DNA of 64,000 bases, taken from contig JAQWOM010000037.1 of the NCBI GenBank assembly GCA_029245865.1, positions 29,655-93,654 of the forward strand. The letters run 5' to 3'. The stretch comes from Planctomycetota bacterium. Lineage in GTDB: Bacteria > Planctomycetota > B15-G4. Positions 57,381 through 63,124 of the stretch are shown piece after piece; the first letter of the stretch is position 1; every line of letters starts with the position of its first letter. The position numbers were made by a program, and so were the translations under genes. The notes beneath the pieces were generated by a model, which saw nothing but the letters and a program-made list of their open reading frames with translations, did no database searches and was not told where the DNA came from.

Positions 57381-58319
57381 TCAGACCAGAGTGTCTTCGT
57401 CATCCTCGCGCTTGCGCTTCTTGCTCTGGCTCTTGAGGAAAGCCCGCTCCTGCTTGCGGAGGCTTTGCTCGGCCTTCGCGAGGTTTTTAGATGTTTCGGC
57501 AGTCTCGCCGTCGGGACTGGCTGCCTCAGCACGACTCTCTTCGTCAGCCTCTGAATAACGGCCGGGGTCGTCACGATCGACCGTCAGACCCGTGAGAAAT
57601 GTCCCGAGGACCTGACCTCCAGCCGATCGAATCAGATCGAGACTGCGGTTGACCTTCTCACGCGGTGCTTCCTGGAGTCGCACCACCACAAGAGCTCCAT
57701 TGACCAGTGCCGAGACAACACACGCATCGGTCCACGGATTGACGGGTGGTGAATCCAAAATGATCCACGAGTAACGACGCTTCAACTCCGTGATCAAGTT
57801 CACGAACTGCTCAGAACCCAGAAGTTCTGCAGGGTTGTCGGGCTCTGCACCGGCACAGATCACATCCATGTTTGGAATGACCGTTGGTACGCGCACCTGA
57901 CTGAGCGAGACATCTCCCTTGATGAGTTCGGTCACTCCCTGGTCCATATCAACCCCAAGGATCCGACCAAGACTTGGCGCTCGTGAATCCAGATCGAGAA
58001 GGCAGACCTTGGCGCCCGGAGCCTCTGCGAGGCAAGCCGCAAGGTTGGCGGCCGTGATGGACTTTCCTTCGCCACGCTGACTGCTCGTGACCACGATCGC
58101 CCAGGGCGCCCCGGAACGATTGATGGCCATCAGGTTTGTGCGACAAGCTCGGTACTGCTCTGCATGAAGCGCGCCGGGCTCGTGGTACATGACCAGGTGT
58201 CCGTCGACCCTGGACAAGAGACCGCCCGGGCGTTCTCGAACGTGTTCCTGTTGATCGACGGGCCATGACGGATCCGAGGCCGTGTCGGCAGGCTGCACGG
58301 GTCTTTCGTTTTCGGTCAT
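57381..58319 (-). CDS. BY-kinase / CpsD-CapB-like P-loop ATPase
   Basis: EQYRACRTNLMAINRSGAPWAIVVTSSQRGEGKSITAANLAACLAEAPGAKVCLLDLDSRAPSLGRILGVD; ...YSWIILDSPPVNPWTDACVVSALVNGALVVVRL; charged C-terminal tail. Confidence 0.88.
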   Translation of the reverse strand: MTENERPVQPADTASDPSWPVDQQEHVRERPGGLLSRVDGHLVMYHEPGALHAEQYRACRTNLMAINRSGAPWAIVVTSSQRGEGKSITAANLAACLAEAPGAKVCLLDLDSRAPSLGRILGVDMDQGVTELIKGDVSLSQVRVPTVIPNMDVICAGAEPDNPAELLGSEQFVNLITELKRRYSWIILDSPPVNPWTDACVVSALVNGALVVVRLQEAPREKVNRSLDLIRSAGGQVLGTFLTGLTVDRDDPGRYSEADEESRAEAASPDGETAETSKNLAKAEQSLRKQERAFLKSQSKKRKREDDEDTLV

Positions 58320-60010
58320 GGACGCTCTCCAGGCATTCCACCCAATCGGGTGATGAGCCCCGCAGTCTTCAACAGAATCGCGTCATCATTGTCGCGCAGA
58401 GACTGCGAAGCTCGGCGTCCAAAACGCTGCAATCGCCGACAAGAGCCCTTGGCGAGCAGAATTTCGTGTTCCAGAGCCTCCGGCCCCACGGTTTCGGCCC
58501 CCTGGTCGTGCAGGCTGACAGCCCGGGACAGCACGGCAGCCTGGGCATAGGTCGCCAGAACTTGATCCGTCAGGGCCGCCACGACCAGTTGCTGCTCGCG
58601 GAGGGCCTTTCCGTGCGTCCGCACGGCCTTCCCCGAAGCGACAGCCAGTTCGGCCACTGCCATCGAAAGGGCCAGGGACTCGGCTCTCAACTCATCGGGC
58701 ACCTTCATGGGGTCGGGGACCTCGGCACCGTCAAGCAAACGCCCGTAAGGATCATCGCGCCCCGGAATGCTCTCGGACAAACGCTCTGCCGGCCCTCGCA
58801 GCCCACTCGTCGCCACCATCACCCGGAGGATTTCGTTGGTGCCCTCGAAAATCATGTTCACACGCGCATCGCGAAGCATGCGCTCGAAGGGGTAGTCCGT
58901 CGTGAAGCCATTGCCACCGGCACACTGCACGGCATCGTTGACGACAGACCACAGCGTCTCGGTGCCAAAGATCTTGCACAACGCAGACTCCAGAGGCAGA
59001 TCGACACCGTGCCGATCTGCCAGCCCGGTGGTCAGGAACACCATGCACTCCAGTGCGTGGAGGCTCTGTGCCATGCGCCCGAGCTTTTGCTGAATCAACT
59101 GAAACTCGGCGATGGGTCGTCCGAACTGCTGCCGCTCGGTGGTGTATTTCACGGCTTCTTCGAGCAGGTAGCGAGACGCACCGAGGCAACCACCCGCAAG
59201 GCCCGTGCGCCCCCCATTGAGGATATCCAGCGCCAGCCGAAACCCTTCACCGGGCACACCGACAAGGTTCTCAACGGGCACCGAAACGTCCTCGAAAACC
59301 AAGGGGACGGTAGAGCTGCCACGGATGCCGAGCTTTGTTTCCTCGCGCCCCGCCTCGTAACCCATTTCACGCTCGACCAAGAGGCAAGAAATCGAGGGGC
59401 GGCCATCTGTTCGCGGATGATCCGGAGTCCGCACAAAAAGTGTGACGAGGTTCGCGAGCCCGCCATTTGTGATCCAGAGCTTGTTGCCATTGACCACGTA
59501 GTGCTGTTTGTCTTCGGACAACTTGGCGGTACACGTCAGCGCTTGTGCATCACTGCCGGCATCGGGCTCCGACAGGGCAAAAGCGGCCTTCAGTTCACCG
59601 GTGGCCAGGCGCGGGAGGTACTTTGCTTTCTGTTCCTCGGTGCCAGCCAGCAGCAACGCCTTGATGCCGATGGTCGAATGCCCGCCAGACAAGATGGCGA
59701 CGGCGCCGTCCGCTGCCGACAGGTCCATGCCCACGCGGCAGTACTGCGTCGCATTGAGGTCCAACCCGCCGTACTCCTCGGGAATGCGCATCCCGAACAG
59801 ACCCAGTTCTGACAGCCCCGCAAGGACTGCCTCGGGGACCGCATGTGCTCGATCGATGGACTCGGCATCGATGTGTTCCTCGGCGAAGCGCCCAAAGGAC
59901 CCGCGCACCATGGAGAGCAGTTCAGCCGAATCCGGGTCAAGGAAGGGGTAAGGACAGAAATCGGCCGCGTCGAGCTGACCAAGAAACATCGAATGAACAG
60001 GAGATGGCAC
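58316..60010 (-). CDS. Acyl-CoA dehydrogenase family protein
   Basis: LGLFGMRIPEEYGGLDLNATQYCRV; AFALSEPDAGSDAQALTCTAKL; GNKLWITNGGLANLVTLFVRT; QCAGGNGFTTDYPFERMLRDARVNMIFEGTNEILR. Confidence 0.95.
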   Translation of the reverse strand: MPSPVHSMFLGQLDAADFCPYPFLDPDSAELLSMVRGSFGRFAEEHIDAESIDRAHAVPEAVLAGLSELGLFGMRIPEEYGGLDLNATQYCRVGMDLSAADGAVAILSGGHSTIGIKALLLAGTEEQKAKYLPRLATGELKAAFALSEPDAGSDAQALTCTAKLSEDKQHYVVNGNKLWITNGGLANLVTLFVRTPDHPRTDGRPSISCLLVEREMGYEAGREETKLGIRGSSTVPLVFEDVSVPVENLVGVPGEGFRLALDILNGGRTGLAGGCLGASRYLLEEAVKYTTERQQFGRPIAEFQLIQQKLGRMAQSLHALECMVFLTTGLADRHGVDLPLESALCKIFGTETLWSVVNDAVQCAGGNGFTTDYPFERMLRDARVNMIFEGTNEILRVMVATSGLRGPAERLSESIPGRDDPYGRLLDGAEVPDPMKVPDELRAESLALSMAVAELAVASGKAVRTHGKALREQQLVVAALTDQVLATYAQAAVLSRAVSLHDQGAETVGPEALEHEILLAKGSCRRLQRFGRRASQSLRDNDDAILLKTAGLITRLGGMPGERP

Positions 60011-60204
60011 GGTTCTTTACGCCTGGTCTAAAGGGGTGAAAGCGATTTGCGACGAAATGGGCCGAGGCGTGAACTCATGACCACATCATCGGAACTAGAA
60101 TGCCTGAGACAAAAGCCTTCATTCACTTGACGGCAACCCACGGGGGTGGCTCAATAGACGTTCCCGCTGACTCTTTGTCGGCATCGCTCTTTATCAGTTC
60201 GATT

Positions 60205-60432
60205 GTGTGTTCTCGGCCTCGGGGAAGACGGTGAAAATCCGTCACGGACCCGCCGCTGTGAATGGTGACAACAGGTACATGGGGCCTTTCAGCGTCCCGG
60301 TCACTGTCTGATGCACACGCCTGACCAGAAGAAGAAAGTACACATCTTCTCCTGAATACCATGCGTGTAAGCCCATCGGATGGGAAGGCGTACCTCGCGG
60401 TCAAGCCATGAGTCAGAAAACCCTGCCGACGA
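60205..60432 (+). ncRNA. Cobalamin (B12) riboswitch-like leader
   Basis: 5' part GGGGAAGACGGTGAAAATCCGTCACGGACCCGCCGCTGTGA (60220-60260) and 3' part GCCCATCGGATGGGAAGGCGTA...CAAGCCATGAGTCAGAAAACCCTGCCGAC (60370-60429) match conserved cobalamin riboswitch segments, with an insertion between. Confidence 0.85.
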
Positions 60433-60546
60433 AACGCTCGTAACCGCCTCGGATATAGGCCGGCGCGAGCACTCGTTGTACGTCCTGCCCTCGGAAAATC
60501 GGATCTCTGTTCGATCCTGCATTCTCTGCTCGGCAAGGGGACGAAG

Positions 60547-60629
60547 GCCGCCAGGCAAGCCTGGTTGGAGATCTGCGCACCACATTGTGCGCACGAAAGA
60601 TCCCGACCACTGCTCAGGCGGCTTTTTTT
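60547..60629 (+). terminator. Candidate riboswitch-controlled intrinsic terminator
   Basis: GCCGCC (60547-60552) pairs with GGCGGC (60617-60622) directly before T7 (60623-60629), enclosing CCAGGC-AA-GCCTGG and GATCTGCGCAC...GTGCGCACGAAAGATC hairpins. By eye only. Confidence 0.45.
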
Positions 60630-60732
60630 GTCTCTGGAGGTTTCAACCCCGCCCTGCTCACCCACCGAGCAGAGCGCAACTTCGCTCGGGGAACCAGAAC
60701 ACGCGTCATGCGCATCCCCCGGAATCATCACC

Positions 60733-62067
60733 GTGCCTTTCTACTCAACTTTGCTTGCTGTTGTCGCTCTGAGCGGCTCCGCTCTCTGCTCTGACTTCAC
60801 GATCCCGGCCGGCTACAACTTCGAAACCTCGCTGGCCGCCGGACCCGTTGTGGGCGTTTTGAATGATGGACGCCTCCTGGTCTCGACCGGATTTTTTGGC
60901 GCCGATGAAATCTCCGTCGTCGAGGCCGATGGCTCTCACGCGCTCTTCGCGACTGGATTCGGGTCGCTGGCCGGAGTCGCCCAATCGCCCGTGACAGGCG
61001 ACATCCTCGTCGGCGACTCTCTCTTCACACCCTCACTGACCGTGCTCCGAGACATCGACGGCAACGGAGACGCGCTGGGAGCAGGGGAAAAAAGCCCCTT
61101 TGCGGTTCAACCGGGCCTGCTCCCCGAAGGTCTGGCCCCACTGCCCTTTTCGCTCTCGTTCCAACCGGGCACAGACAATCTCTTCATGACCGGCTCCACC
61201 CCTTTTGACCCCATGGTTCCAACGGTCGGTGTGGTGTCGAGGTTTTCCGCCGGAGTCGAGACAACCTTTGCCACCGGCCTCGGCTATCCGGCCGGCATGG
61301 TCTGGGATGGAGAAGATCTCTACGTCGCAGACCTGAACGCCTCCACATTTGTCGGGCGCATCTTGACCCTGACAGACGCCAACAGGGATGGCGATGCACG
61401 CGATGCGGGCGAAGCGGTCGAGTTCGCGTCAGGACTCAGTGGCGCCAATGGACTGGTGCGTGCAGCGGACGGTTCGTTCTACCTGTCCGGCGTGTTCGAT
61501 GTGCTTGAAGGCGGCGACTTCAGTGGCTGCATTGCCCGAATTCTTCCCGACGCGAACGGCGATGGTGTGCATGACGGATTCACCGAGGCATACATCGACG
61601 GCTTTGCGTTCACGGGGGCCCTGACTCTGATCGAAGGTCCCGAGGGCTTCACCCCTGGCGCGGGGGGTGACGGCCAGCTTTACATCGGCGACTTCTCTGC
61701 ACCTGCGGGCGATCGGATCCTCACTTCGGCCCCCCATGCGGCCACCCATGTGCTGGGCGAGGTCGCGAACAACTCGACCTTTCAGATCATGGTGTCCGGC
61801 GAGATCGGAGCCACCGCATTCAGCATCATTTCCCTGGACACCTCGACCACGACGATCGCAGGAATCGGCGACCTCTGCCTCGGCTTCCAGGGTGCCTTCA
61901 AAGTCTTCGCCCCCCAGACCATCGGCCCGACTCGTTCCGTGACTCAGAAGATTGACGTGCGCGATGAACCCGCGCTGATCGGTCTCGAAGTCGCCATCCA
62001 GGGCATCGTGCTCGAGGATGGGCGCTACGGACTGGGCAACTCACTCCATTTTGTCGTCAGCCCCTGA
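60733..62067 (+). CDS. Secreted beta-propeller-like (NHL/SMP-30-type) protein downstream of cobalamin riboswitch (GTG start)
   Basis: VPFYSTLLAVVALSGSALCSDFTIPAGYNFETSLAAGPVVGVLNDGRLLVSTGFFGADEISVVEADGSHALFATGFGSLAGVAQSPVTGDILVGDS...; GMVWDGEDLYVADLN...GANGLVRAADGSFYLSG blades. Confidence 0.8.
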   Translation: MPFYSTLLAVVALSGSALCSDFTIPAGYNFETSLAAGPVVGVLNDGRLLVSTGFFGADEISVVEADGSHALFATGFGSLAGVAQSPVTGDILVGDSLFTPSLTVLRDIDGNGDALGAGEKSPFAVQPGLLPEGLAPLPFSLSFQPGTDNLFMTGSTPFDPMVPTVGVVSRFSAGVETTFATGLGYPAGMVWDGEDLYVADLNASTFVGRILTLTDANRDGDARDAGEAVEFASGLSGANGLVRAADGSFYLSGVFDVLEGGDFSGCIARILPDANGDGVHDGFTEAYIDGFAFTGALTLIEGPEGFTPGAGGDGQLYIGDFSAPAGDRILTSAPHAATHVLGEVANNSTFQIMVSGEIGATAFSIISLDTSTTTIAGIGDLCLGFQGAFKVFAPQTIGPTRSVTQKIDVRDEPALIGLEVAIQGIVLEDGRYGLGNSLHFVVSP

Positions 62068-62095
62068 TGACCCACGACACGTTCGAGATTCGAAG

Positions 62096-63124
62096 ATGAA
62101 ACCGAGTCAACTCACCGCATCGCTGCTCGCCGGGGGCCTTCTCGTCGCTTTCGCGGCATTCAGCACCCCCTATGCGGTCACGGTGCCGACCCTGCTCCCA
62201 GGCCCGCACAGCACGGGCGATTTCTTGGCCATGACAGGCTCACCAGAAGGCGAGGGTCTCTATGTCGCCTCAAACGATGTCTATCAACTCGGTGTAGGCG
62301 GACAGGTTGTCCTCGAACTGGGGGCCACAGCATCTGACGCGGCCGGGACGGATCTCATCATCTACGAGAACCCTTTCCTGCTGATCGGCGCCACGAACTA
62401 TGAATCCTGGGCCGAAGTGCTCACCGTCGAGGTCTCAACGAACAGCTTTGACTGGGCCGCCTTCCCAACCAGCTACAGCGGCAGCCCGGGCCCCTTCGGC
62501 CTGTTCGAGGGATTGCCCATGCACCACTACCGCGGCTTCGCGGGTGTCTCTCCCTTTGCGGCCAATCCCGCCGAGGGCTATGACCCGGCCGATGTGGTGG
62601 CCAGTGGCGGCGACGTCTTCGATTTTGCAGACCTGGCAGATGACCCGCTCGTTCTCATGGGACTCGTCGACCTCCAAGACATTCGCTTCGTGCGTCTCAC
62701 GGATGTGGTCTCTGGCACGTCGCAAGACAGTGCGGGCAACACCGTCTGGGATTGTGGTGATGCCAACTTTTCCTGCGCAGACATCGATGCCGTGTTTGTG
62801 AAAAACAGTTCCGAGATTGCGACAAACGGTCGACCATGGGTTGAACTCAGCATGGAGGAGTTTCCAGGCGGCACCTACATGGTGCTCGAGCTCGGTGACC
62901 CGGATGGTCTCTGGGAGATCGTCCCGTTCCTCACGGCCAGCGCGAATGGTGTCCCGGGCGACTTCTACAACCTTCTTCAGTACTTCGTGATCCTCGAGCT
63001 AGACGACACGCACGCACGTCTGGCCGCGGGCCCCGTCATCCCGCAACTGCCAGCGACCCAGTTCCGCGTGACAGCAACGGACGGCACCGGACAGAAGGGT
63101 GGCGACGCCATCTACTTTCCTTGA
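62096..63124 (+). CDS. Secreted 'cell surface protein' family, second gene after the cobalamin riboswitch
   Basis: MKPSQLTASLLAGGLLVAFAAFSTPYA signal peptide; LGVGGQVVLELGATASDAAGTDLIIYENPFLLIGATNYESWAEVLTVEVSTNSFDWAAFPTSY...FDFADLADDPLVLMGLVDLQDIRFVRLTDVV. Confidence 0.8.
   Translation: MKPSQLTASLLAGGLLVAFAAFSTPYAVTVPTLLPGPHSTGDFLAMTGSPEGEGLYVASNDVYQLGVGGQVVLELGATASDAAGTDLIIYENPFLLIGATNYESWAEVLTVEVSTNSFDWAAFPTSYSGSPGPFGLFEGLPMHHYRGFAGVSPFAANPAEGYDPADVVASGGDVFDFADLADDPLVLMGLVDLQDIRFVRLTDVVSGTSQDSAGNTVWDCGDANFSCADIDAVFVKNSSEIATNGRPWVELSMEEFPGGTYMVLELGDPDGLWEIVPFLTASANGVPGDFYNLLQYFVILELDDTHARLAAGPVIPQLPATQFRVTATDGTGQKGGDAIYFP

Follow-up and report, generated by a model that had tools for sequence, protein, structure and literature searches.

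A putative exported BtuH-domain protein and a beta-propeller behind a planctomycete cobalamin riboswitch: a candidate corrinoid-capture pair

The riboswitch, its leader and the propeller gene

The stretch of DNA analysed here, a 64-kb window from a planctomycete draft genome of 3.33 Mb (90.7% complete, 57 contigs), carries a cobalamin riboswitch, a candidate terminator and two tandem genes for putatively exported proteins (Table 1). A sequence-only reading had recognised the riboswitch and proposed that the pair captures corrinoids outside the cell, by analogy with the surface propeller BtuG. The covariance search bears out the riboswitch: its Infernal score for RF00174 (64.1 bits, E 1.5e-13) lies well above the Rfam gathering threshold of 31.5, and it is the sole Rfam match above gathering within the window and the single RF00174 match detected genome-wide. 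The pair are the only genes behind it.

Table 1. Features of the riboswitch locus, in positions of the 64-kb window
Feature	Position	Strand	Evidence or remark
Cobalamin riboswitch aptamer (RF00174)	60197..60444	+	full-length match to the model (1-189) in cmscan, 64.1 bits, E 1.5e-13
Candidate intrinsic terminator/expression platform	60547..60629	+	extended stem, GCCGCC (60547-60552) pairing with GGCGGC (60617-60622), then T7 (60623-60629)
Gene 1 (444 aa, GTG start): putatively exported beta-propeller plus a beta domain at the C-terminus	60733..62067	+	
Gene 2 (342 aa): protein with a BtuH-type domain, putatively exported	62096..63124	+	homology, riboswitch association
ENPF motif of gene 2, residues 91-94	62366..62377	+	aligns with BtuH2 Asn399, Phe401

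The candidate attenuator described from the sequence is likewise found, as a stem closed by GCCGCC and GGCGGC and followed by the T7 run, in a segment (60430-60645) whose fold has a z of -3.1. Among eight other leaders, that of one relative (G002) has a similar GCCGCC..GGCGGC stem with a T6 after the riboswitch, and a T5 run is absent from the other seven. Shared by the host and G002 and by none of those seven, the T-run stem makes a transcription attenuator downstream of the host riboswitch plausible here, not as a general feature of such leaders. Upstream of the riboswitch, on the opposite strand (57381-60010), lie genes that by eye are acyl-CoA dehydrogenase-like and ParA-like; a similar acyl-CoA dehydrogenase-like ORF occupies the corresponding place in G001, G004 and G005.

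The tandem arrangement of two signal-bearing genes holds, with hydrophobic, export-like N-termini judged by eye in both, and the spacing is 28 nt rather than the 29 nt first given. The GTG start of gene 1 was placed by aligning the N-termini of homologues. The AlphaFold (AF2) model of gene 1 (pLDDT 78) agrees with the earlier description of a beta-propeller plus a C-terminal beta domain, and among the Foldseek matches listed with good TM-scores the closest are propellers of the SMP-30/lactonase and strictosidine-synthase types. This fold offers some support for an alternative in which the pair is regulated by B12 and does not bind it, the two being surface proteins, matrix proteins or enzymes produced under B12 shortage, for instance to alter attachment or to free cobamides from other cells or particles. 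We regard this alternative as improbable, and return to it where gene 2 and its neighbours bear on it.

BtuG, the seven-bladed surface propeller of entry 3DSM, resembles gene 1 in being an exported propeller under a cobalamin riboswitch, and in one relative (L065) a gene-1-type propeller stands in a TonB-receptor cluster. However, the gene 1 profile (A2) shows no resemblance to the single BtuG it was compared with (hhalign probability 0.2), a profile search of the PDB gave no BtuG match at E up to 1, and the best Foldseek matches listed are of the SMP-30/lactonase type, whereas a different propeller family, A4, does align with BtuG. The identification of gene 1 as a BtuG was rejected for this lack of detected sequence similarity, and the earlier reading is corrected in one respect: the connection with Bacteroides is made by gene 2 and BtuH instead of the propeller and BtuG. 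Nothing links gene 1 directly to a protein proven to bind B12, which counts against a capture module; its possible role as a binder or partner is suggested by its constant place behind the riboswitch. Homologues occur in all five other genomes of the same family and adjoin gene 2 in four of them; in G004 the two homologues lie on separate contigs, each behind its own riboswitch. More distant relatives include the 462-aa propeller of L065 (hhalign 96.1%, E 2.9e-9) and the propeller family A3 (85.6%, E 5.6e-6).

Gene 2 and the B12-binding domain of BtuH

Gene 2 encodes a core (approximately residues 27-240) followed by an Ig-like C-terminal domain. It has no Pfam match, and searches of the window's proteins against Pfam, and as single sequences against the PDB, returned nothing informative. 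Foldseek of the gene 2 model gave weak beta-sandwich matches only, among the PDB matches listed, and nothing useful from a viral library. A profile of 67 sequences found a single PDB match at E up to 10, namely 7BIZ (E 1.1), which is BtuH2 with bound B12 (PMC8941943). A core-only profile (A6) did not list BtuH2 at E up to 10 and returned chance-level EarP matches only. That BtuH2 was first reached at just E 1.1, and was missed by the core-only profile, weighs against the capture-module reading.

Profile-profile comparison gave a clearer signal. Nine BtuH sequences were collected via their homologous stretch, with phage and plasmid collections among the sources. The gene 2 profile aligned with that of the C-terminal B12-binding domain of BtuH at 96.1% (hhalign, E 2.9e-9), while the reversed control reached 0.25%, three propeller families reached at most 0.4%, and 100 column shuffles scored at most 20.7 against the real score of 66.5. 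The C-terminal halves also align (GGDAFD...L..IRFVR; 70%, 22 columns, E 3.9e-5). The gene 2 HMM further matches a BtuH-domain protein of Persicobacter (E 1.5e-9, calculated for a database as large as the PDB), which likewise has no Pfam match and whose gene lies behind RF00174 and ahead of a TonB receptor and a DUF5074 protein. By these sequence comparisons, gene 2 and the C-terminal, B12-binding domain of BtuH are distantly homologous.

The aligned residues point to one edge of the ligand. BtuH2 numbering was checked on the BtuH of B. finegoldii, which is identical across the 46-residue query stretch and whose residues agree with the published ones (333 Q, 399 N, 401 F, 476 H, 510 Y, 511 W, 577 W, 578 L; PMC8941943). 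In BtuH2, Asn399 contacts the phosphate and Phe401 the lower base of complete cobamides (PMC8941943); in the alignment these are N92 and F94 of gene 2, within an ENPF motif whose E91 and N92 are invariant in 67 sequences and whose F94 is kept in at least 90%. Near the place of Gln333, a ribose contact, many Myxococcota members have a Gln, and the host gene 2 does not. The corrin contacts His476, Tyr510 and Trp511 fall in segments missing from gene 2, and the Trp577 loop is replaced; corrin-ring contacts that are absent or unalignable across the family count against corrinoid capture. Considering the homology and the retained Asn399 and Phe401 equivalents together with the loss of the corrin contacts, we think it likely that the gene 2 protein binds a corrinoid, in a mode that may differ from that of BtuH.

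Homology to a proven B12-binding domain, with the aligned nucleotide-loop residues kept, argues against a pair that is merely regulated by B12. The missing corrin-side contacts would better suit a ligand other than a complete cobamide, such as a corrinoid precursor or degradation product (cobinamide, for example) or a cobalt complex. The residues that do align, however, are those that meet a complete cobamide at its phosphate and its lower base (PMC8941943), and no CobS was found that would complete cobinamide, so that we consider such a ligand very unlikely.

BtuH1 and BtuH2 of Bacteroides thetaiotaomicron (7BIZ) thus share with gene 2 a homologous domain, the Asn399 and Phe401 positions, cobalamin-riboswitch loci and, for gene 2 as judged by eye, an export signal. 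They differ in that BtuH has N-terminal PKD domains and gene 2 has none; BtuH is an outer-surface lipoprotein, and the export-signal-like N-terminus of gene 2 has no lipobox evident by eye; gene 2 also lacks the His476/Tyr510/Trp511 segments and has a C-terminal Ig-like domain instead; and no TonB receptor was detected in the genome of gene 2, although the clusters of some relatives have one. BtuJ/DUF4465 proteins bind B12 and are exported, beta-rich and encoded at riboswitch-controlled loci, as the gene 2 protein appears to be, but gene 2 has no sequence link to the one DUF4465 member compared (hhalign 0.2) and no Pfam match, and this identification was rejected.

In NCBIfam, gene 2 matches the LIC_13355 family lipoprotein model of Leptospira (NF033170) at 45.8 bits (E 4.2e-12), below its cut-off of 120. 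At L110:8619-10573, a family member above the cut-off (144.3) adjoins a weak LIC13354_fam match and lies behind RF00174. The published cobalamin riboswitches of L. interrogans precede btuB and LIC20135, with none at LIC_13354/13355, and both of the latter genes are upregulated in host-adapted Leptospira (PMC3953431). The lack of a published riboswitch there speaks against corrinoid capture (PMC3953431). Recombinant LIC_13355, the founding member of the NCBIfam family closest to gene 2, has been reported as a laminin- and plasminogen-binding lipoprotein, in a text that does not mention cobalamin or B12 (PMC11891782), and the reported binding favours the alternative of B12-regulated proteins that do not bind B12.

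Recurrence behind riboswitches and beside uptake genes

Among 58 genomes searched (the host's own and 57 others), gene 2 was found in five others of the same family and in two of the order, and RF00174 lies close by in 7/7 of these gene-2-bearing relatives. Every genome of the order (14/14) has RF00174, in one to four copies. In six genomes where gene 2 was undetected (G006, G007, G009, G010, G011 and G013), the sole riboswitch precedes an exported A3 propeller.

A degenerate-pattern scan of genome contigs recovered 154 gene 2 relatives, and the 80 best among them come from Planctomycetota, Myxococcota/Deltaproteobacteria, CSSED10-310, BRC1/Sumerlaeota and others. When RF00174 was searched genome-wide in 50 genomes drawn from these 80, 38 had it on the same strand no more than 7 kb upstream of the gene 2 match, against 0.06 expected. 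It lay within about 360 nt in 21 of the 38 (expected 0.004, a figure for 500 nt). In this mapping, contigs were paired by coordinates rather than names, and each distance is measured from the tblastn match rather than from where the gene starts. When 17 loci mapped as positive were scanned directly with cmscan, 17/17 had a plus-strand riboswitch upstream. Homologues of gene 2 therefore do recur behind cobalamin riboswitches, some of them beside TonB receptors and BtuF- or BtuC-like genes. A chance association was rejected, with 38 observed against 0.06 expected.

No same-strand upstream riboswitch was found in 12 of the 50 genomes, and cmscan of nine such loci found none (0/9), which counts against the capture-module reading. 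The Leptospira loci fall outside the best 80 relatives, and the Leptospira locus was judged from papers. Relatives in Nannocystis, Polyangium and Leptospira that have no nearby riboswitch (for Leptospira, PMC3953431) are what one might expect if the association were inherited synteny or chance, devoid of functional meaning. Distances and gene orders, however, vary across Planctomycetota, Myxococcota, BRC1 and other lineages, and with 38 of 50 found where 0.06 were expected we think this explanation exceedingly unlikely.

Neighbouring genes connect several relatives with B12 uptake. In Bacterium HR30 (L065), the riboswitch is followed by the 462-aa propeller, a gene-2-like gene, a TonB receptor, a second propeller, a BtuF-like gene, assigned by clustering with the PF01497 protein of L070, and a FecCD (BtuC-like) gene. 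The second propeller belongs to A4, found in clusters of the Myxococcota type; its first nine PDB matches (E 0.04-0.12) are chains that, beyond 3DSM, we take from their entry names to be BtuG, and in profile alignment A4 and BtuG align at 92%. A TonB receptor also lies downstream of the gene 2 homologue at L112 and, by cluster, at L076. Other cobalamin riboswitches precede BtuF-like genes in two genomes of the order (G012 and G002) and one outside it (G075); in G002 the BtuF-like gene, identified by reading, is followed by FecCD and an ABC ATPase. Relatives that adjoin genes for TonB receptors and BtuF- and BtuC-like proteins again argue against B12-regulated proteins that do not bind the vitamin.

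The relatives' loci hold several further features. Six Myxococcaceae loci (L071, L072, L079, L083, L100 and L105; five of the six named Corallococcus) each have, in roughly 10 kb, two copies of the gene 2 domain and at least two sites resembling a cobalamin-riboswitch motif. Another cobalamin riboswitch in Archangium, Nannocystis and Polyangium (L150, L151, L153 and L160) precedes an ORF with a MRVKKRSGALEPVDI-like stretch that by eye reads like a ribonucleotide reductase. A gene-2-like domain at L062:2157-2885 comes from a bin labelled as a Thermoplasmatota archaeon, in a genome where RF00174 went undetected, and could be a binning error. BtuH-domain genes also occur, unannotated, on human-faeces contigs deposited as bacteriophage and marked UNVERIFIED (L189-L193).

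A candidate cobamide-acquisition module

The host encodes apparent consumers of cobamides, namely a methylmalonyl-CoA mutase with its B12-binding subunit and MeaB, and a B12_binding_2/B12-binding pair as in MetH; CobS was undetected in 14/14 genomes of the order, the host included. The sequence-only reading saw no BtuB, BtuCDF or Cob genes in the window and assigned the pair distant partners. A BtuF-BtuC-BtuD-like cluster lies elsewhere in the genome (G000:C43; L127:8134-13083), with no riboswitch found there, while CobS and a TonB receptor went undetected in the assembly. Dabb-domain and glucose/sorbosone dehydrogenase-type genes are co-directional with that cluster.

TonB-receptor barrel and plug domains were undetected in the host, in G003 and in all four f2 genomes of the order, and G003 and the f2 genomes G008 and G012 carry gene 2 all the same. 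The host assembly is 91% complete, so that any single absence could be a gap. The lack of a detected receptor in the host counts against the capture-module reading at its outer-membrane step. It is tempting to speculate that in planctomycetes that have no TonB-dependent receptor the BtuH-domain protein and the propeller make up the whole riboswitch-controlled outer part, with B12 crossing the outer membrane without BtuB, but we hold this as a tentative and rather doubtful proposal.

The riboswitch, the gene pair, the BtuH homology, the association with riboswitches and uptake genes, and the lack of a detected CobS are computed observations. The earlier proposal of an extracellular corrinoid-binding pair finds its support in the recurrence behind riboswitches and in the BtuH homology. 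We consider it probable that the pair forms a cobamide-repressed acquisition module, in which secreted corrinoid-capture proteins feed BtuFCD. Cobalamin riboswitches usually repress. At low cobalamin, a riboswitch of this repressing kind would let transcription through the downstream terminator, and the two presumably exported proteins would be made. The BtuH-type domain of gene 2 would then bind a corrinoid with its ENPF edge at the nucleotide loop, against the phosphate and lower base, and the propeller may cooperate as a partner or as a second binding protein. Together they would trap cobamides, where these are scarce, on the cell surface or beyond it and hand them on, by some route, to an entry point in the outer membrane. 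From there the cobamides would reach the BtuFCD-like importer, whose genes lie at another place in the genome, and the imported cobamide would serve methylmalonyl-CoA mutase and the MetH-like enzyme.

BtuH, a surface protein that binds B12, has so far been described chiefly in gut Bacteroidetes, the published record covering Bacteroidetes and three Firmicutes (PMC8941943). In the portions of the open-access literature that we covered we found no paper on BtuH in Planctomycetota, Myxococcota or Leptospira. A BtuH relative as one of two putatively exported planctomycete proteins behind a riboswitch suggests that BtuH-type B12 scavenging is much more widespread than reported. A large family of unannotated exported proteins, spread over Planctomycetota, Myxococcota and other lineages, would gain a testable function from the link to BtuH, which would also suggest a new hypothesis for the LIC_13355 lipoproteins of Leptospira. 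How B12 passes the outer membrane becomes a question for genomes in which gene 2 is present and no TonB receptor was detected. More broadly, the link would point to B12 scavenging as a trait of exported proteins in environmental bacteria.
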